A stretch of DNA of 64,000 nt from a virus. Within the stretch, counting starts at the first letter, position 1, and each line of letters opens with the position of its first letter. The position numbers were made by a program, and so were the translations under genes. The notes under the pieces were generated by a model. That model did no database searches and had not been told where the DNA came from. It saw only the letters and a program-made list of their open reading frames with translations. The stretch covers positions 37,725 through 101,724 of the IMG/VR virus record IMGVR_UViG_3300021168_000002; one strand, written 5' to 3'. This document shows, piece by piece, positions 17,229-33,481 of this stretch.

Positions 17229-18128
17229 TTACGCATGAAGATCGAACCCCAAACCTGCCTTATCGGCCCATGTTTTTCTGACCATAATCTGCTCCCCAAA
17301 TTTTGTGTATCTTTCAGAAACATCGCCCGCCGCGTGACCGGCCCAAAACTTCACCAGGGTCGCGGGGACGCTCGCGGCTTGCAGGTGGGTGATGCGGAAG
17401 CGGCGCATGGAGTGAAAACCTTCTAGCCCGAGTTCTTCTATGCGGCGGCGAAGAGTGCGCTCCGAGGATACAAATATTTTTGAATCGCGAATCGCGAATA
17501 CCGAATGCAGGAGGCTATTCAGTGCCGGGTCTAAGTCCACGATACGGGTCCCGGCCTTGGTCTTGGTGGAGTCTTGCAACTTGCCGTTGACCAGGGTCGC
17601 GCGTACCGCGATGGTCCCGGCTGCCGGGTCCCAATAGTTGGACACCCCGTCGTCGATCTTATGCATGGCAAGGGCCTCCCCGACCCGTAGGCCGGTCCCA
17701 GCCAGGAGGGCCACTAATCCCCCCACTTCGCCCCTTACGGCTGCCACAGCGCCTCCCAGCGCCAGGGATGTGGCAATTGGGGTCCTCTGGGCTGATTTGT
17801 CGATCTTCGGGGCGTCGATAAAGCGGGTATTCCACGTTCTGGGATAAAGTTGATTTCCTTCGTCGTCTACCGCAGACTTGACAACCTGCTTCACGAGACT
17901 GACTGCCAAGGTTATGGTGGCGGGACTCAGATCAGCCTCTGCGAGACGGCCAACGAGTACCTTGACAGTTCGGTTGTTGACCTCCTGCAATTCCAGCCCG
18001 CCGATGGCAGGTAGGAGACGGAAGTCGATGATGGAGCGATAGACGCGCAAAGTGTTCACTTTCGCGGGGTCACTTTTGCGAAGGGCAATTTCAGACATGA
18101 AAGTCTCAGCCTGTGATTGAAACGTCAT
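17229..18128 (-). CDS. Tyrosine recombinase / integrase
   Basis: 299 residues. The catalytic set is complete: R148 (GTGLRVGEAL), K191 (TKTKAGTR), H239-x-x-R242 (FHSMRR), H265 (FWAGHA) and Y274 (SERYTKFG). Residues 1-90 form the SAM-like core-binding region. The start at 18128 is preferred over an upstream GTG because the promoter -10 (18149-18154) overlaps that GTG, and GGAG lies before 18128. It would catalyse site-specific integration and excision. No att core could be identified. The nearest tRNA (51.2 kb) is far away. Confidence 0.88.
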   Translation of the reverse strand: MTFQSQAETFMSEIALRKSDPAKVNTLRVYRSIIDFRLLPAIGGLELQEVNNRTVKVLVGRLAEADLSPATITLAVSLVKQVVKSAVDDEGNQLYPRTWNTRFIDAPKIDKSAQRTPIATSLALGGAVAAVRGEVGGLVALLAGTGLRVGEALAMHKIDDGVSNYWDPAAGTIAVRATLVNGKLQDSTKTKAGTRIVDLDPALNSLLHSVFAIRDSKIFVSSERTLRRRIEELGLEGFHSMRRFRITHLQAASVPATLVKFWAGHAAGDVSERYTKFGEQIMVRKTWADKAGLGFDLHA

Positions 18129-18148
18129 CTTGTTTTCTCCATGCACCA

Positions 18149-18177
18149 AGTCTCTCACAGTTCGGAAAGTTTGTCAA
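18149..18177 (-). promoter_or_regulatory. Promoter upstream of integrase
   Basis: On the minus strand: TTGACA (18177-18172), 17-bp spacer, GAGACT (18154-18149) preceded by TGA. The -10 is weak, suggesting low or activator-dependent expression of the integrase. Confidence 0.6.
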
Positions 18178-22951: not shown

Positions 22952-24175
22952 TTACTCTCCGATCTCTGTCTGGACGGTAAGCGTCCCGTTCTGATCGTCT
23001 GCCAGCTTCAAGGTGATCTGGTTCAAACTGATCTTGTGCTGTTTCAAGTACAAGACCACTCTACCAGATTCCACCGGGCCTGTCAAGACAATTCTTGCAT
23101 TATTATTTACCCCAATTGCGCCCACGGCTTCGTCTAGAATTACGTAGCAGCCGGGGTCTGGGATGCTGTTGTGAAGTTTGCAAAAGCCGATAGTCGCGAT
23201 CTTGGTACTGGCCTTGCAGACCCGGGTATAGTGAACCGGAACCGCCTTGGGCTGATTGCAGTCTGGGGACGGCTGGGCTGCTATCGGGGCCAGAACGGGT
23301 TGTGGGGCTGGTACAACGATAACCTGCGGCTGAGGGGCTGCTGGGGGCTGTGGGACCACGATCTGGGGGACTGGCGGAACCACGATAGCTAGGCAATCAT
23401 CCAAGGTCAGCTTGGCGCGTCTGGCAGCATCGCTGCTGCAAAGTATCCTCGCCGCTGCGGTCTTGTTGCCGAGTGCGTAGAAAACAACTGCGGTCTGTCG
23501 GGAATCGCAACCCTTGTCGGTCTTGCTCACCCCTAGACTGCCTGCGCCACCCGGGAGAGATACGCCACCTGAGAAGCCTTTCACGCACGGTGACGTGGTG
23601 AAGGCCGCGTCCGGAGCGTATGCCATCGGCGTCTGGCGGACCTGATTGTCGACGAAGCTGGTGACATTACCGGCAGAATTGTTTGATGAACTCGCGGAAC
23701 CTCCCGTACCACCGTTTGCTGTGGTATTGTTTGTATTGGATGAATTCCCTGAGTTGGTCAATATGGAATTGCCACTGTTCTTCACCACCGAAGACCCGCC
23801 CGTAGCTGTCGCGGAGCCACCTGTGGATGTACTTGTCGAGTTGCCCCCCGTTACGCTGGAGGTAGATTTCGAATTCGCGCTGGAATTCGAAGTCGCATTT
23901 GAGTTTGCGGAGGAGTTCTGCGTCTGATTCTGCGATTGATTGACCGTAGGCGGTGTTGGCGGTGTTACCGGTGGTTTCGGAACTTGACATTGGTATAGTT
24001 GTCCTTTCGTTCCTTCGCTACCTGTGCCAAGGAACAGTTGGCCGTCTCCATTCCCGAAGGAACCGGACGTGCCAGATACTACCGGGACGCGTGATGCAAG
24101 CGGGTCGCTACAATTCCACGCGAACGCGGGCGATGCAAATGCGAGAAAAACTAATGCTAGGATGGTCTTTTTCAT
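22952..24175 (-). CDS. Secreted Asn/Ser-rich protein
   Basis: 407 residues from ATG 24175. A classical signal peptide (MKKTILALVFLAFASPAFA) precedes a mature protein with paired Cys. Residues about 75-205 are a low-complexity Asn/Ser/Thr/Gly region. A Cys-containing domain follows (SPCVKGFSGGVSLPG, CDSRQTAVVFYALG), then a Pro/Val/Gln linker and a C-terminal Cys domain. It should be exported to the periplasm or beyond. The Asn/Ser/Thr block would be a good substrate for glycosylation. Function unknown. Confidence 0.7.
   Translation of the reverse strand: MKKTILALVFLAFASPAFAWNCSDPLASRVPVVSGTSGSFGNGDGQLFLGTGSEGTKGQLYQCQVPKPPVTPPTPPTVNQSQNQTQNSSANSNATSNSSANSKSTSSVTGGNSTSTSTGGSATATGGSSVVKNSGNSILTNSGNSSNTNNTTANGGTGGSASSSNNSAGNVTSFVDNQVRQTPMAYAPDAAFTTSPCVKGFSGGVSLPGGAGSLGVSKTDKGCDSRQTAVVFYALGNKTAAARILCSSDAARRAKLTLDDCLAIVVPPVPQIVVPQPPAAPQPQVIVVPAPQPVLAPIAAQPSPDCNQPKAVPVHYTRVCKASTKIATIGFCKLHNSIPDPGCYVILDEAVGAIGVNNNARIVLTGPVESGRVVLYLKQHKISLNQITLKLADDQNGTLTVQTEIGE
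23058..23086 (-). promoter_or_regulatory. Internal promoter
   Basis: Minus strand: TTGACA, 17-bp spacer, TAGAGT preceded by TGG. It lies inside the 3' end of the secreted-protein gene and points to the 22519-22950 gene. Confidence 0.6.
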
Positions 24176-24200
24176 TGTTACCTCTTTCCGGCTTAGCCGA

Positions 24201-24422
24201 TCAATCTTTTGAACTCGAATTGGAACTTTTGAATGCGGTGCCGAAGAATACATTGAGAACGAGGGCCTTCCAAAAACCGATCTTCGCGGCACCGAAAACG
24301 AAAGTCAGTAATTGGGCGGTGAACAGATAGTTCACAATCCACATCGTGGGATATGCCATCAACATCGATAAGCCCAGGACCATTGCAACAAGAATAACTA
24401 AAGATGCGAACAGTTTTGTCAT
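24201..24422 (-). CDS. Small two-span membrane protein
   Basis: 73 residues with two hydrophobic segments (ASLVILVAMVLGLSMLMAYP and LLTFVFGAAKIGFWKALVLN) and a Ser-rich tail. First gene after the promoter at 24438-24466 and close to the endolysin gene. A holin is possible on size and topology, but nothing proves it. Confidence 0.6.
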   Translation of the reverse strand: MTKLFASLVILVAMVLGLSMLMAYPTMWIVNYLFTAQLLTFVFGAAKIGFWKALVLNVFFGTAFKSSNSSSKD

Positions 24423-26300: not shown

Positions 26301-27296
26301 TCACTTCAAATACAGCCAATGCCTGTTTTCTGCTCGCACCATCCACTCTACCGTATTTTTGAGATTGGTGTCAAGGCTTTTCGATGGCATCCATCCCATC
26401 GCGGCCAGCTTGCTGCCGTCCATACCGTATCGAACGTCGAAGCCGGGGCGAATCGTTTGAGGGTAAATCTCGCGATAAGCTAGTTCCCTTCCTAGGACTT
26501 TCGCGATCACTCTAGCGACATGCAAATTCGAATACTCTTGCATTCCTGTGATATTGTACTTCTCACGGTTCAGTCCACGCTCCAATAAAAACATGACGGC
26601 CTCGGACACGTCCTGGCAGTGTAGGTAATTTCTTGTGCCGGGATTGCCGGTCACCGGGTCAACGTGGATATCGAGGGTCCTTCCGTTGAGAAGTGCGCTG
26701 ACCACCCGTGGGATGAATTTCTCCGGATGCTGGCGCTCCCCATAAACGTTCATCGTGTGGCTGATGATTACGGGGACGCCGTACGTGTTAGACCACGCCA
26801 GTGCCAATTCCTCCCCACCGGCCTTTGTTGCGGAATACGGATTGGTCGAATTGTAGCGGTCCCACTCTCTGAATGCCTCTCCAACTTTGGCTGGCCCGAA
26901 GACCTCGTCGGTCGAGAAGTAGAAGAACTTTTTGAGTCCTGGGATGCGGCGGGCGTATTCGAGCATCTCGAAGGTTCCGAAGATATTCGCCTCCACAAAG
27001 TCGCGGGGACACGCAATCGAGCGGTCGACATGGGTCCCAGCTGCCATGTGAAGCAGGTAGTCGATGTGGCCGATCTCTGCCTCCAGGCACTTGCCCAGCG
27101 GTTTCGCGACATCTGCAACGTGAATCTTGACGCGCGGATTGTTAGGCCATGCACCGATCTCCATTAAACGCTGGAGACCATTCGATGCGTACGTTAACTT
27201 GTCGAGAAGGACGACGTCCCAATCAGTTGTTTTCAAAACATGATCGACAAAATGCGCGGCAATAAATCCTGCGCCACCTGTGATGAGAATTTTCAC
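26301..27296 (-). CDS. Sugar-nucleotide 4,6-dehydratase (RmlB-like SDR)
   Basis: 331 residues from GTG 27296, which overlaps the TGA of the upstream glycosyltransferase. ILITGGAGFIAAH is the NAD-binding Rossmann motif, STDEVFG carries the Thr-Asp-Glu catalytic set typical of dTDP-glucose 4,6-dehydratases, and YSATKAGGEEL gives the YxxxK pair. NVYGERQHPEKFIPRV is the usual sugar-nucleotide site. It makes a 4-keto-6-deoxy nucleotide sugar in the cytoplasm, presumably a donor precursor for the adjacent transferases. GDP- or UDP-sugar specificity cannot be excluded. Confidence 0.85.
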   Translation of the reverse strand: MKILITGGAGFIAAHFVDHVLKTTDWDVVLLDKLTYASNGLQRLMEIGAWPNNPRVKIHVADVAKPLGKCLEAEIGHIDYLLHMAAGTHVDRSIACPRDFVEANIFGTFEMLEYARRIPGLKKFFYFSTDEVFGPAKVGEAFREWDRYNSTNPYSATKAGGEELALAWSNTYGVPVIISHTMNVYGERQHPEKFIPRVVSALLNGRTLDIHVDPVTGNPGTRNYLHCQDVSEAVMFLLERGLNREKYNITGMQEYSNLHVARVIAKVLGRELAYREIYPQTIRPGFDVRYGMDGSKLAAMGWMPSKSLDTNLKNTVEWMVRAENRHWLYLK

Positions 27297-29371
27297 TTTC
27301 CCTCCGGGAATATGTCTGGATGATTTCTTCGAATCGCTGCGCACATCTGCTCATGAGTCTGGCCCGCTATGCTCCTCATCGAGCCGGGGCGCATCCGGTA
27401 TTTGAATAACGGTTCATGCAGGACAGCGCACTTCCAAGTTCGCTTCAAAATGTCTAAGGAAAGATTCCAATCACCGTAGGCCCAGATATCCAGATTCATG
27501 CTGTATCCACCGGCCTGCTCGAAAGCCTCTCGAAGGATGAGGCGGCAGTACGGCATCTGATTGGATACTTTCTGCTGCTCCAAAGTCTCGGCGGTCGGTA
27601 TTCGCAGGTCGGATAACCCGAAGTACTGCATATCCGTTGAGACTATGCCGACGCCTGCCTTCATAAGCGGCACGGTTTTCTCAAGATAGTGGGAGTCGAG
27701 TAAGTCGTCAGCGTCTAAGAATAGGAGCAAATCGCCTGTGGCGGCCTTGGCTCCGGTATTGCGGGCCACATTCAGTCCCTGGTTTTCTTGTCGTATCCAC
27801 ACGATTGAATCTACGAACTGCTGGGACACTGTGTGAACATTGTCCATCGAGCCGTCGTCGACCACGATCACTTCGAAGTTTCTGTAAGTCTGCGCCAAGG
27901 CCGATTCGATGGTCTCTTTCAAATACTCCTTCATGTTGTAGCAAGGAATCACTATGGATACTCGGGTCTCTACGCTGTTTCGGACCTTCAGTTCTTCAAA
28001 CAAAGACCTCGGGTGATATATTTTATTAGGCACCAAAGCGCCGTCGGTCCAGGCAGATGTTCTCAAGTGAATCAAGTAAGACCGGTCTGTGAAATTCCAT
28101 CGCTTGAGTCCGGGAGATACGAAGTGCAGCATCTCATCATATCGCATGGCATCGAGTACTATCGGGGCCTTGACATATTTGCTCAGCCCGAATTTCGGGA
28201 CGGCCTCTTTGAATAGCGCGGGGCCGAAGGATATCCAACTTTCCGGGTGCATCTTATCCATGCTCTCGATCTTGTTGGCAATGTACTTCAAAACTTCCGC
28301 GTCCTTCGGTGCCTTGAAGACGCAGCCGCTGAGATACTCTTGGACTTTGTCGGAAGATGGGATGACATCCGTATCGGGAGATCGACGAGCGCCCAATTTC
28401 TCTTCTGATACGAAGGCGTAAGGCTCCGGGAAGTCTAGTTTGCGCAGGCACACCGTATCCAAATCTACATACCAGCCGCCCTCTCTCAAGATCAGGAGGA
28501 CCCGAAAGTAGTCGCAGAAGTGCACGCTGTTGTCAAACTCCGCTAATCTAGACTTGGGTAGAATCTCGTTTGCATCTTTGACTACCGTTCCCTTCGGGAT
28601 GCCTTCCGTTGGCTGTGTTACATACAAGTGGAACTCATGGCCGTGCCGCATGTAAGAGCGGATGCACAGTTTCTGGATGTTCGTTAATTCTGGACCAGAC
28701 CAAAAGCCTCTGACGATCTTGTTGCTATCCTTCCAAGACTGGTCGGGCTTCTCTAAGTGCTGAATCTTGGGGACCAGCCCGGTCCAGCCTTCCGGATAAG
28801 CGTAGGCGGGAGATAAGACCTTTCCAGGCGGGTTGTCGTGCAGATAGCGATTCAAGTGCGATTCATCGAACCAGACTGCGGTAATTCCCTTCTCATTGTC
28901 TGCGTCGATGCTCTTGCTTATACTGGCGCACATGTGAAGAAATGCGCCGGTGCTTCCACCAACGAAGCAGCCTTGATAATATGTGGAGCCATTGCCGACG
29001 TAAGCGGCAGATTGCGGGCGACGCTCCCAAGCCTCCGGGAAACCCGGATGTAGGACTGCGGTGATTCCGCCAGCAAAAATTTCGTCGAGTGCTATCTTGC
29101 TGACGACCCGTAAGTCCACGTCCATGTAATAAACGTGGTCATACGCCAGCAGGAAGCCCCGCTGCTCGTAGATGGCGTGATAGCGCATCATGGTAGCGTC
29201 CGGCCATCCCAGGTCCAGATAATCAAACTTGATTGCGTCAAAAGAATCTTTGCTGTCGGTGAACAAGAGTATATCGCACGGTGGGAAGAAATCTCTCAGA
29301 GATGCGATCATCGGCGCGATGTGCCCTGCGTAACGTTCGCCTGTCGCGACTAGGATGACAGCGGTCTTCAT
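27293..29371 (-). CDS. Triple-domain glycosyltransferase GT6-GT32-GT2
   Basis: 692 residues. Residues 1-210: GT6 family (animal ABO/alpha-1,3-Gal transferases), with YMDVDL (DVD 84-86), LHPGFP, ERRPQSAAYV, QGCFVGGS and AVWFDESHLNRYL. Residues about 215-450: GT32-like (OCH1-type), with FWSGPEL, FCDYFRVLLILREGGWYVD and DLD 303-305. Residues 470-690: GT2, with VSIVIPCYN, VVDDGS and the LDADD metal site at 552-556. All three metal-binding acidic motifs are present. It probably adds several sugars to one glycan in the cytoplasm. It is coupled by ATGA to the GT11 gene and by GTGA to the dehydratase gene. Confidence 0.85.
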   Translation of the reverse strand: MKTAVILVATGERYAGHIAPMIASLRDFFPPCDILLFTDSKDSFDAIKFDYLDLGWPDATMMRYHAIYEQRGFLLAYDHVYYMDVDLRVVSKIALDEIFAGGITAVLHPGFPEAWERRPQSAAYVGNGSTYYQGCFVGGSTGAFLHMCASISKSIDADNEKGITAVWFDESHLNRYLHDNPPGKVLSPAYAYPEGWTGLVPKIQHLEKPDQSWKDSNKIVRGFWSGPELTNIQKLCIRSYMRHGHEFHLYVTQPTEGIPKGTVVKDANEILPKSRLAEFDNSVHFCDYFRVLLILREGGWYVDLDTVCLRKLDFPEPYAFVSEEKLGARRSPDTDVIPSSDKVQEYLSGCVFKAPKDAEVLKYIANKIESMDKMHPESWISFGPALFKEAVPKFGLSKYVKAPIVLDAMRYDEMLHFVSPGLKRWNFTDRSYLIHLRTSAWTDGALVPNKIYHPRSLFEELKVRNSVETRVSIVIPCYNMKEYLKETIESALAQTYRNFEVIVVDDGSMDNVHTVSQQFVDSIVWIRQENQGLNVARNTGAKAATGDLLLFLDADDLLDSHYLEKTVPLMKAGVGIVSTDMQYFGLSDLRIPTAETLEQQKVSNQMPYCRLILREAFEQAGGYSMNLDIWAYGDWNLSLDILKRTWKCAVLHEPLFKYRMRPGSMRSIAGQTHEQMCAAIRRNHPDIFPEGK

Positions 29372-30147
29372 ATTTTAATCCATCGCTCCGGTACGATATC
29401 TGAGTAGTCTTCTCCCGACCCGTCAGCAAACCACTTTGCGGGAGCAATCACCGTGCGGTTCTTTTGCTTGTCGCCCAACCACGCGCCCCACCACGAGAAA
29501 GAACTGTTAGCGATGATCGCGTGGTTGCAGATCGACATCAGGTAAATATCTTCTGATTCGGTGCCTGGTTCCACAAAGGTGAATGGTTCGGAAGAAAAAT
29601 TGCTCTTCACCCATTTTATGTCGTCGGAGAATATGAAAAATCGAGCACTGAGTCCACGCTCGTGCCAAATGCGCGTCATAGCATCGGCGTAGTATTTATC
29701 TGAGAGTATGCCGTGAAAACTCTTGTGCGGTTCATTCAGATAGTCGCCGCGACGAACATGAACTGCGACTGAATTGCTTTGAAAAATTTGTTTCAATAAA
29801 TCCCGCGATCTGATAGACCAAGTCAGCGGTGTGAACTCGCCGCGCAATGCATCCGGGTCGTAGAAATACTTTTCGCTCTGCCAATAGCCTTGTAGAACGT
29901 CGCCGTCCTTAATGCTATCCACTGTCGCCTGATTGTACCGCATGCCTTGTTCGTGAACGGTGGCAGCGTGACGGGGCGCTAATTGGAGAGCATCTATATT
30001 CCACTGATGGAGAGCAAGAGGTCGATTGACTCCCAGGAGGGATGTATCAAGCTGGACGCGAGTATCGAGGCGACGCGCCACCGCCAGTCCCATAGCGTAT
30101 TGAAACATCTGATTGCCCATCCCGCCCATCAGCTTCACTGTAATCAT
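29368..30147 (-). CDS. GT11 alpha-1,2-fucosyltransferase
   Basis: 259 residues from ATG 30147 (4-base overlap with the GT6 gene). The family's motifs are all there: GGMGNQMFQYA (residues 8-18), HVRRGDY (130-136), FIFSDD (171-176) and ANSSFSWWGAWL (213-224). GT11 enzymes transfer fucose from GDP-fucose to the 2-OH of galactose, the H-antigen reaction. GDP-fucose must come from the host or from genes outside the window. Confidence 0.92.
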   Translation of the reverse strand: MITVKLMGGMGNQMFQYAMGLAVARRLDTRVQLDTSLLGVNRPLALHQWNIDALQLAPRHAATVHEQGMRYNQATVDSIKDGDVLQGYWQSEKYFYDPDALRGEFTPLTWSIRSRDLLKQIFQSNSVAVHVRRGDYLNEPHKSFHGILSDKYYADAMTRIWHERGLSARFFIFSDDIKWVKSNFSSEPFTFVEPGTESEDIYLMSICNHAIIANSSFSWWGAWLGDKQKNRTVIAPAKWFADGSGEDYSDIVPERWIKI

Positions 30148-30830
30148 TTGCCCGCCTTGGTTAACGCCAGAATCTTTGGAGTGACAATCAAGCCTGCGGC
30201 CTTCCACTTGCTTGTGTAGTATGGACCTGCGTTCTCCGGGTAGCAGTAAGACGGGTCGAGAACTTTCGTTGGACCATTCAAGTATAGGTATCTGTTTAAG
30301 TGCGATTCATCGTGCCATATAGCTGTGATTCCTCTACTCGCATCTTCGTCGACTGCTCCTTTTATAGCTTGTGCCATGCGCAGAAAATGCCCCGAAGTCC
30401 CGCCATTGAAACCTCCGCAGAAATACCTGTTGTTGCTTCCTTGTGGAATAACTGCCATCGACTCAGCGCGACGCTCCGGTGTACCCGGTGTGCCGACATA
30501 GCCCGGATGTAGCGTGGCCGTTATACCATCAGAGAATATCTCCTCCCCTACCGGGGCAACGAATCGCATGTCTACGTCGATGTAAAACAAGTAGTCGTAC
30601 TTCTCAAGAAATTGATACTGTTCAAAGAAGGTGTGGTATCTGTACAGCGTCTCGTTTGGAAATCCCAAGGCATACTTTTGAAGTTGAAATTTCGCGATGC
30701 TGGGAATTAGTTCGTCCGCCCATAAGAACGCGTCGTGCTCCACGAAAAATTCTTTAGCAGACTCCAGCAGTGGATTAACATACTGGTGATATCGCTCTCC
30801 TGTGGCTATAACTAAAAGCGCGGTCTTCAT
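30144..30830 (-). CDS. GT6 family glycosyltransferase
   Basis: 228 residues from ATG 30830 (GGATGA overlap). FYIDVDM (DVD 85-87), ATLHPGY, PERRAES, CGGFNGGTSG and AIWHDESHLNRYL align with the ABO/alpha-1,3-galactosyltransferase family. It is a soluble form without membrane anchor. The known reaction of the family is transfer of Gal or GalNAc from UDP-sugar to galactose, usually fucosylated. It is clearly related to the N-terminal domain of the triple transferase but divergent, so it is not a recent duplicate. Confidence 0.88.
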   Translation of the reverse strand: MKTALLVIATGERYHQYVNPLLESAKEFFVEHDAFLWADELIPSIAKFQLQKYALGFPNETLYRYHTFFEQYQFLEKYDYLFYIDVDMRFVAPVGEEIFSDGITATLHPGYVGTPGTPERRAESMAVIPQGSNNRYFCGGFNGGTSGHFLRMAQAIKGAVDEDASRGITAIWHDESHLNRYLYLNGPTKVLDPSYCYPENAGPYYTSKWKAAGLIVTPKILALTKAGK

Positions 30831-31540
30831 CCGTTCACCGTCTTGTTCACTAGGTGCGCAGCTTCCATCCACTTCAGCTTCGGGTCATAACCGGACCCGT
30901 ACTTCAATTGCGGGAAGTGCTGCGAGTAAGCGCCCGCTGGTAGATCGAGCGCGAGCATGTCGCCCTTAGCGAATTCTGGCCCTAATACTTGTCCAACCCA
31001 CAAGTCTTCTGCCCACCCCTTAGGATAAGAATCTGAGATCAAGAACATCGCCTCCCTAGATAGGAAGTAACCGTAACCACCGCTAGCCCACGGGTGGCAC
31101 TCAGCGATATGCGTAGTAACGCCGCGACGGTCAACCGCGTCGTAAGGAAAAGTTTCGCCAATTGGCTTGCTGATCTTACCAGCATAGTCAAATCTCCGAT
31201 ATCCGCACGTCAGAAGCCTGCTTGCATTCACATAAGTATCTGTGTCGCAGAGAAAAACGTGGTCGATATTCTTGGTGGTCACCCAATGACAGATTGAGCG
31301 GACCTTGAAAGGCAACGCGTCGTAATCATCCGCGCTATCTGCGACAACCTCGTCGCTCTTCAACGTCCGAGCGTCGGCCTTGGGGTGCGCTAGAAAATAA
31401 TCCGCCCCGGTATGACCTACGAAGAACCGGACTAAGACGTTTCGGTTCCTCAAGTCTTGGCCCCAGGTCGCGCGAATCACATCGTGGTAGCCGCGATCTA
31501 AGTCAGCGCGGCACGACTTAACAGCAACGAGTAAGGTCAT
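30827..31540 (-). CDS. GT31-like beta-1,3-glycosyltransferase
   Basis: 237 residues; ATG 31540 overlaps the DHH-gene stop. VAVKSC, then IRATWG, RFFVG, FLCDTDTYVN (DTD 99-101) and the GGYGYFLSREA and EDLWVGQVL blocks match the beta-1,3-galactosyltransferase (GT31/fringe-like) pattern of animals. It would add beta-1,3-Gal, GalNAc or GlcNAc using a UDP-sugar. It sits directly upstream of the GT6 and GT11 genes in the same coupled operon. Confidence 0.8.
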   Translation of the reverse strand: MTLLVAVKSCRADLDRGYHDVIRATWGQDLRNRNVLVRFFVGHTGADYFLAHPKADARTLKSDEVVADSADDYDALPFKVRSICHWVTTKNIDHVFLCDTDTYVNASRLLTCGYRRFDYAGKISKPIGETFPYDAVDRRGVTTHIAECHPWASGGYGYFLSREAMFLISDSYPKGWAEDLWVGQVLGPEFAKGDMLALDLPAGAYSQHFPQLKYGSGYDPKLKWMEAAHLVNKTVNG

Positions 31541-32490
31541 TTTACACATCCTCCTGGCTGAACGAATGTGGTGTAAGTGATTCGATTCAGAATTTTGTCA
31601 ACTAAAATGCGGCCTTCCGGCATAGATAGCTGGAAGCCTGCGGCTGTTCCGTGGCCGCCGCCCCCGTACTTCTTTGCAATTGCACTCACGTCTACGTTGC
31701 CACTGTGTAAGCTGCGGAGAGAAAACTGCGTGATACCGTCGCCGCGTTCGAACCACAGTAAGCCGATATCGTAGCCCTTGTCGATCAGCGCCGCGCCTGC
31801 CTCGCTTACTCCGACGTACGGGATGTTTAGTACGCCAGTCTTGTAGCCTTCGAACACACCTTCCTGCGCCTCCGCGACTACGGAGCGGGTATAGTATTCG
31901 ATGTATTCGCGGACGCCCATACCGCTGCGTCGCGCGTCGTTTGCGGAAATTTTGTTTTGGATAATATCCCACGTTTCCATAGTACGTGGTTGAACCATCA
32001 GCCACGCGTTGATGAGTTGTGAATCAGGCAACGCCCAATTCCAGAGGTCTTGATCTTCGGTGTAGTTCACCCACCACGGACGCGATTCAAACATATACAT
32101 CACGCCGCCCGGTTTATCCAAACTCTGAGCGGGACGATCTTTACAATCTTTGCCGAAGAGATAATCCCACGCAAGTCCCGCGCCCGAGCGTTTCATGTCG
32201 AATGTGGCGTACTCTGCGCCGTTGAGCGCAGCCTGGGCTGTCTTGTGGTGGTCGAGGATGCGGAACGATTTCGCGACCAAATTTAGTTGGTCATTCAACT
32301 CACGAGTGCGGAGCGAGTAGTCAACCATGATGACATCTTTGCCTGCGCAGATATTGAATAGCGAATTAAGCTGGTTATCGTTAAGACCGTGATTCAGCGG
32401 CAACAGTTCTGCTTCCGGATACTTCATCTTGCAGATGTAGGCCGCCGCCCAACCATCAGGACAATTTTGGTGGAAAAGGACGAGGTCCAT
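31537..32490 (-). CDS. DHH-family phosphoesterase
   Basis: 317 residues. FHQNCPDGWAAAY, VDYSL, ILDHHKTA (the DHH motif) and a C-terminal DHHA1 loop, KYGGGGHGTAAGF, are visible. The family cleaves oligonucleotides, cyclic dinucleotides or phosphates with Mn2+. Its place inside a glycan operon is unusual. A role in nucleotide recycling or in degrading a signalling nucleotide is possible. Confidence 0.8.
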   Translation of the reverse strand: MDLVLFHQNCPDGWAAAYICKMKYPEAELLPLNHGLNDNQLNSLFNICAGKDVIMVDYSLRTRELNDQLNLVAKSFRILDHHKTAQAALNGAEYATFDMKRSGAGLAWDYLFGKDCKDRPAQSLDKPGGVMYMFESRPWWVNYTEDQDLWNWALPDSQLINAWLMVQPRTMETWDIIQNKISANDARRSGMGVREYIEYYTRSVVAEAQEGVFEGYKTGVLNIPYVGVSEAGAALIDKGYDIGLLWFERGDGITQFSLRSLHSGNVDVSAIAKKYGGGGHGTAAGFQLSMPEGRILVDKILNRITYTTFVQPGGCVK

Positions 32491-32695: not shown

Positions 32696-33481
32696 CTATT
32701 TTACTTGCTCATCAAATCCGTAGTAGTGCTTGATGTTGCGCTTCTTCATCATCAGCGCGTGGCCGGTCGTAACAGCGCGGCAGCGAAGTTTGTTGTAATC
32801 CGGGTGCTGCTTGCTCGCGTCGTACGGTATCTGATTGATATTTGCATACGGCGATGAGAATACTACCTTCATGCCCGCTTCCTTTAAGTCGAGGAACCAA
32901 TCCGCATGTTCCCCTCCTATTGGCTTAATGCTCTCGTCCCACGGCATAGCTCGTAGAACTTCGGTGCGGGCCAGGAAGTAATTCGCAGCGATATCGATCT
33001 CCCACAGCACGAACGGCTTCAACCTGAACGGAAGTTCATTGCGAAGAGCGTGCTCTTTGATATACTCACCTGGGACGTACTCAAGGAATCCTTCGTAAGA
33101 GCGGTCATTGACCCTTCCGGCGACCACGTCGATCTCTCGCCCTATATCGATCTCGGATGATTTCAGTATCCGGACCATCCGGATGATACCTTCTCGTACT
33201 TCTGGCGTAGAAAAGTCGAAGTCATCGCTGCCCATTAATGTATATTGCGTATCCACTAATCTAACCGCCGCGTTGCGCTTCGCGGTGAGACCGCTGTCGT
33301 ACGGCAGCTTCGCCCAATAATACGTGTTGTATGCGCTTTGTTCCAGCGTGCAGTCGCCATCATCGTCTTGCGCAATTCTCACTTGACACTCAGGCAAGTT
33401 CTTTTGAATCCCATCGAGACAGTCCCGCAGATAGCCTCGGCGGTGGAAGGTCGGAATGACAATGGTAATATCTTTTAGCAT
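32696..33481 (-). CDS. GT2-like glycosyltransferase
   Basis: 261 residues. ITIVIPTFHRRGYLRDCLDG, RIAQDDDGD and LMGSDDFDFS (acidic metal site) give the GT-A fold of family 2. The last part has HADWFLDLKEAGMKV. Probably the first-acting transferase gene in the operon order. Substrates unknown. Confidence 0.75.
   Translation of the reverse strand: MLKDITIVIPTFHRRGYLRDCLDGIQKNLPECQVRIAQDDDGDCTLEQSAYNTYYWAKLPYDSGLTAKRNAAVRLVDTQYTLMGSDDFDFSTPEVREGIIRMVRILKSSEIDIGREIDVVAGRVNDRSYEGFLEYVPGEYIKEHALRNELPFRLKPFVLWEIDIAANYFLARTEVLRAMPWDESIKPIGGEHADWFLDLKEAGMKVVFSSPYANINQIPYDASKQHPDYNKLRCRAVTTGHALMMKKRNIKHYYGFDEQVK

Follow-up and report, generated by a model that had tools for sequence, protein, structure and literature searches.

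Why would a phage carry three glycosyltransferases in one polypeptide, and what would such a protein build? The question is raised by a 692-residue open reading frame, P0001, in the window (the whole 64,000-nucleotide stretch analysed here), which is part of a 101,724-base IMG/VR virus contig that encodes a terminase and a portal of SU10 type. The 37.7 kb of this contig outside the window were read as two further loci. The viral record may be incomplete.

A single frame with three glycosyltransferase domains

The sequence-only reading had placed a GT6-GT32-GT2 fusion at 27293..29371. A frame of 692 codons with an ATG start lies exactly there, but it sits on the minus strand, and the plus-strand reading of 27293-29371 contains stops. 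Pfam matches above the curated cut-offs were obtained for Glyco_transf_6 (residues 56-206, E 9e-24), Gly_transf_sug (279-313, E 3.5e-7) and Glycos_transf_2 (472-597, E 5e-34). Profiles built from relatives cover residues 2-211 (GT6), 217-465 (GT32) and 467-685 (GT2) with E-values of 5e-74 or better, so that the domains are separated by gaps of 1-5 residues within a single frame. The G+C content by codon position is similar in the three domains (0.57/0.42/0.64 in GT6, 0.51/0.37/0.63 in GT32 and 0.54/0.37/0.65 in GT2), which argues that one frame is coding throughout, and chance is ruled out as its source. The metal motifs were found where they had been predicted, DVD at 84-86, DLD at 303-305 and DADD at 553-556, and the proposal of three complete GT-A domains of these families is borne out by Pfam, the relatives' profiles, the motifs and the models.

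In the AlphaFold2 model of full-length P0001, domains 1 and 3 mostly reach a pLDDT above 90; the pTM is 0.48, and the relative arrangement of the domains is not fixed by the model. A simple hydropathy scan predicted no transmembrane segments in P0001. An exact-peptide search found no close copy of the whole protein in another viral contig, and the exact frame therefore rests on one assembly.

The middle domain

Is the middle segment an enzyme or a linker? Domain 2 (residues 217-465, 27977..28723, minus strand) is GT32-like by profiles and model and carries D303-L-D305 and H435...W441. It scores 31.3 bits against Gly_transf_sug (cut-off 23), a family matched by 40 of its 46 relatives, while the C-terminal region of Gb3_synth is matched by 15 of the 46 and not by the window domain. 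Modelled alone from an alignment with 46 GT32 rows (A6), the domain gave a pLDDT of 90.8 and a pTM of 0.90. In VIA-align 2 comparisons, this model aligns with YeGT over 188 residues (Z 16.5, rmsd 3.2), with glycogenin over 209 (Z 14.9, rmsd 3.6) and with Och1, a GT32 enzyme, over 185 (Z 13.3, rmsd 3.4). On its own, the model does not tell GT32 apart from other, related families of retaining GT-A enzymes. The matches to GT-A enzymes span the full length of the domain. The family profile also retrieves Och1 from the PDB by sequence (E 9e-5), whereas a single-sequence phmmer search of the PDB gave no match. Free-standing relatives of 246-256 aa (L014, L031) span domain 2 end to end. On the basis of the lone-domain model, the fold matches, the profile and the free-standing relatives, the middle segment is a complete GT-A domain, as had been claimed for it.

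A linker is ruled out by the confident lone-domain model and its fold matches. In the full-length AlphaFold2 run the middle domain was poor, with pLDDT values of 25-70 over most of its length. The cause is most likely that MAFFT misplaced the GT32 rows of the alignment used there (A5), in which the identity of these rows was 11-22%, compared to 24-48% in A6. Because the domain alone was rerun with the clean alignment, the poor middle of the full-length model is no evidence against the fold.

Exact peptides retrieved no copies of domain 2 from the viral collection, whereas an alignment-based search returned 75 viral relatives. Among the loci kept, the nearest is L015 with 47% identity. The known counterparts are GT32 alpha-transferases (Och1; Gb3 synthase type), of which Och1 is matched by domain 2 in both profile and fold. 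The eukaryotic enzymes of this kind are free-standing and membrane-anchored.

The first and third domains

Domain 1 (residues 1-212, 28736..29371, minus strand) is assigned to GT6 by Pfam (84.2 bits against a Glyco_transf_6 cut-off of 25), motifs and model. It carries D84-V-D86 and D169-E170-S171, and the latter motif is present without change in all 98 viral GT6 domains. In a Foldseek search of the PDB, its fold is matched by BoGT6a and by ABO transferases (E 1e-19, rmsd about 2 Å over 219 columns). BoGT6a from Bacteroides ovatus and human ABO thus have the same family (GT6), fold (GT-A) and catalytic motif (DES) as domain 1, but they are single-domain enzymes, whereas domain 1 is part of a three-domain chain. 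Moreover, BoGT6a is metal-independent and carries NXN (PMC3961637), in contrast to the DVD of domain 1. The donor-selecting triplet of domain 1, QGC, matches neither that of GTA (LGG) nor that of GTB (MGA), and therefore the sugar it transfers cannot be called. Its nearest phage relative among the loci kept is L015 (54% identity). The phage GT6 proteins of PHROG 3317, found in cyanophage P-SSM2, have the PHROG family and DXD in common with domain 1, but they are stand-alone proteins of 230-240 aa, whereas the GT6 of P0001 is fused.

The metal motif is distributed differently in viruses and bacteria. DXD is kept in 96 of the 98 viral GT6 domains (loci L008-L092), while the 77 bacterial ones (L168-L247) are divided, with NXN in 42 and DXD in 33. 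Just two bacterial GT6 enzymes with DXD were known to a 2014 paper (PMC3961637).

Domain 3 (residues 467-692, 27296..27973, minus strand) is a GT2 domain by Pfam, motifs and model, with VDDGS at 504-508, DADD at 553-556 and D634 of GDWN. It scores 118 bits against Glycos_transf_2 (cut-off 23.3). The nearest relative among the loci kept is the stand-alone GT2 of L022 (56% identity), and phage GtrB-type PHROGs also match the domain.

A cassette of overlapping genes

P0001 is one member of a larger glycosyltransferase cassette, not a stand-alone system. Five minus-strand genes in the order GT31-GT6-GT11-[GT6-GT32-GT2]-epimerase are linked by four successive 4-base stop/start overlaps (ATGA, ATGA, ATGA and GTGA). 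Pfam identifies the first as a GT31-like beta-1,3-glycosyltransferase (30827..31549), the second as a stand-alone GT6 that is 47% identical to domain 1 (30144..30830), and the third as a member of the alpha-1,2-fucosyltransferase family GT11, with an ATGA overlap on each side (29368..30147). P0001 follows, and the GTG start of the last gene, a nucleotide-sugar dehydratase/epimerase by Pfam and PHROG (26301..27296), overlaps its stop. The head of the cassette is formed by a GT2-like protein (32696..33481, minus strand, Pfam), which is kept in the sister phages L024, L028 and L030, and a DHH-family phosphoesterase lies within it (31537..32490, minus strand, Pfam), as it also does in L024. The cassette is located in a replication/lysis operon.

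The neighbouring GT11 is of particular relevance to the GT6 domains. Characterised GT6 enzymes (ABO, BoGT6a) use Fuc(alpha1,2)Gal acceptors (PMC3961637, PMC4202792). By analogy, the GT11 product would be Fuc(alpha1,2)Gal, and GT11 followed by GT6 would reproduce the H-then-A/B order of blood-group synthesis. Among the viral loci kept, GT11 was found near GT6 in 33 of 37 GT6 clusters, whereas it lies near 8 of the 46 GT32 clusters that lack GT6 (p 2e-11 by Fisher's test), a count that is indicative because it was made on 80%-identity clusters with 6- and 7-kb flanks. Pfam confirms 45 of the 46 members of the GT11 set and 23 of the 24 in the GT31 set. In bacteria, GT11 is nearby in 41 of 73 GT6 clusters. 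This linkage, together with the acceptor preference of GT6, supports a step order in which GT31 would act before GT11, and GT11 before GT6.

GT6 and GT11 are also fused, in both orders, in four bacterial contigs from metagenome-assembled genomes (L180:870-2570, L189:5416-7590, L211:5998-7629 and L224:3774-5363), three of them confirmed with Pfam. Such fusions place two successive blood-group steps within one chain.

Fusions in other viruses and a possible origin of P0001

How unusual is the fusion? Our viral survey comprised about 160 loci. An alignment search with GT6 gave 342 viral relatives, of which the best 80 loci were retained, and one with GT32 gave 75. Within these, the exact order GT6-GT32-GT2 occurs only in the window, which agrees with the original remark that no described protein had this combination. 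The uniqueness implied by that remark is nevertheless too strong: three-GT viral polypeptides have been published (PMC7826918), and at least 17 other non-redundant phage ORF clusters fuse these families in other orders, so that P0001 is not a lone oddity. The orders seen include GT31-GT32-GT6-GT2, GT32-GT2-GT2, GT31-GT6, GT6-GT31, GT2-GT6, GT32-GT31, GT32-GT32, GT32-GT2 and GT2-GT32, among others; Pfam was run on several of these fusions. Four separate records (L016-L019) carry the GT6-GT31 form. The fusions have terminase, portal and head genes among their neighbours, indicating that the contigs bearing them are phages. One phage ORF of 1016 aa (L039:4444-7491) holds GT32, GT6 and GT2 in one chain, as P0001 does, but its order is GT31-GT32-GT6-GT2 and its GT2 is more distant; the other cassette genes were not found beside it in its 12.6-kb locus.

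The published case is A111/114R of chlorovirus PBCV-1, an 860-aa protein with three domains, GalT-XylT-FucT, which has been proposed to add three sugars of a short, fixed glycan to the major capsid protein without recourse to the ER-Golgi pathway of the host (PMC7826918). P0001 likewise contains three complete GT domains in a single virus-encoded polypeptide. On the other hand, A111/114R belongs to an algal virus and combines GalT, XylT and FucT, whereas P0001 belongs to a phage and combines GT6, GT32 and GT2. Among the open-access papers searched, none dealt with glycosyltransferase fusions in phages or with a cassette of blood-group type in a phage. What is new in the material searched is the family combination and the phage setting, while the principle of a multi-GT viral chain was already known.

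Related phages suggest how P0001 may have arisen. In L024, L028, L030 and L032, the GT31 and GT6 genes are adjoined by separate GT2 and GT11 frames, and GT32 is absent from these loci. The upstream gene order in L024 is that of the window, whose stand-alone GT31 (75%), GT6 (68%) and first GT2 (63-66%) are nearest to the sister phages and whose GT11 is nearest to L028 and L024 (52-53%). GT2 and epimerase are adjacent genes in L022 and L026, where the nearest relative of domain 3 (56%) is found and with both of which the window epimerase shares 72% identity. Judged by these identities, the affinities of the P0001 domains and of the cassette are mosaic, and P0001 appears to have arisen when a module of GT6 and GT32 was joined to a GT2 that formerly preceded the epimerase.

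Proposed product and acceptor

From the domains, folds, motifs, gene overlaps and GT6-GT11 linkage we infer the reactions, their order and the acceptor as follows. Three glycosyltransferases that normally act in turn would have become one chain, each domain adding one sugar. As the family analogy suggests, the GT6 domain would supply a sugar of Gal or GalNAc type in alpha-1,3 linkage; the GT32 domain would add an alpha-linked hexose, and the GT2 domain one further sugar. Translated in a coupled operon with the GT31-like beta-1,3-transferase, the GT6, the GT11 fucosyltransferase and the nucleotide-sugar epimerase, P0001 would contribute to a joint product, a short oligosaccharide of fixed structure built around Fuc(alpha1,2)Gal. 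The fusion would hold intermediates and enzymes together, in a fixed ratio. The sequence-only reading spoke of processive assembly, for which there is no sign: each domain belongs to a different family, none shows signs of polymerase activity, and three different single-step enzymes imply sequential addition.

We consider it probable that this soluble three-step enzyme and its operon neighbours build a short fixed fucosylated oligosaccharide whose acceptor is most likely a virion protein in the cytoplasm, with a host surface glycan as the alternative. In mycobacteriophages, glycosylation of virions is known (Freeman et al. 2023, as cited in PMC12691614). Downstream of the cassette, a 446-aa ORF (22952-24292) combines a hydrophobic, signal-like segment with a stretch in which Ser and Thr together make up 46%. 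It is a possible candidate for the glycan acceptor.

Could the same enzymes instead remodel the LPS or capsule of the host during infection, for instance to keep out superinfecting phages? Bacterial GT11 and GT6 enzymes do act on O-antigen (E. coli O86 WbwK and WbnI; PMC4202792), and the match of domain 3 to GtrB-type PHROGs points in the same direction. However, P0001 has no transmembrane segment, and simple hydropathy scanning across the 101.7-kb record predicted no polytopic membrane proteins, whether a flippase like GtrA, a polymerase or any other, which argues against a phage-encoded flippase/polymerase route; the flippase GtrA and membrane-anchored GtrB of gtr-type O-antigen conversion were not found in the record. 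The position in a replication/lysis operon suits neither a virion nor a host-glycan acceptor strongly. We regard modification of the host surface as rather unlikely. A virion protein is favoured over it, though not proven, since genes for a flippase, a polymerase or DNA hypermodification were not seen.

The glycosyltransferases might also attach sugars to a hypermodified base in the DNA of the phage, since they are soluble and lie beside replication genes. In favour of this explanation, other phages are known to modify their DNA with several sugars. Nevertheless, no thymidylate-synthase-like hydroxymethylase, TET/JBP dioxygenase or similar hypermodification enzyme was recognised among the window ORFs scanned, which included only part of the small ones, and we judge DNA decoration very improbable. 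It is extremely unlikely that two or three adjacent genes were joined into this frame by an error of sequencing or assembly: only one copy was seen and the neighbouring genes overlap by 4 bases, so that a one-base error could join them, but two junctions would both need errors, the domain edges lie within 1-5 residues in one frame, and the same glycosyltransferases are fused in at least 17 other clusters, one of which occurs in four separate records.

The locus has wider implications. Multi-sugar viral polypeptides are known from an algal virus, and the same solution recurs in bacterial viruses, with blood-group-type domains shuffled; the tight GT6-GT11 linkage carries ABO-type biosynthetic logic over to phages. 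It is conceivable, if doubtful, that many environmental phages encode modular GT31/GT32/GT6/GT2 assembly-line proteins with GT11, making ABO/P-like terminal oligosaccharides on their own virions. If so, glycan structure would be partly readable from domain make-up. Whether a single phage gene encodes a surface glycan structure is testable, and the phage fusions offer a supply of soluble multi-step enzymes for the synthesis of defined oligosaccharides.

Elsewhere in the 101.7-kb phage record, an integrase-like protein (PHROG 1) is encoded at 17229-18158 of the window. The window proteins also include a match to the DruA domain (PF14236), a pentapeptide-repeat protein and three endonuclease VII homologues (alignment A4).
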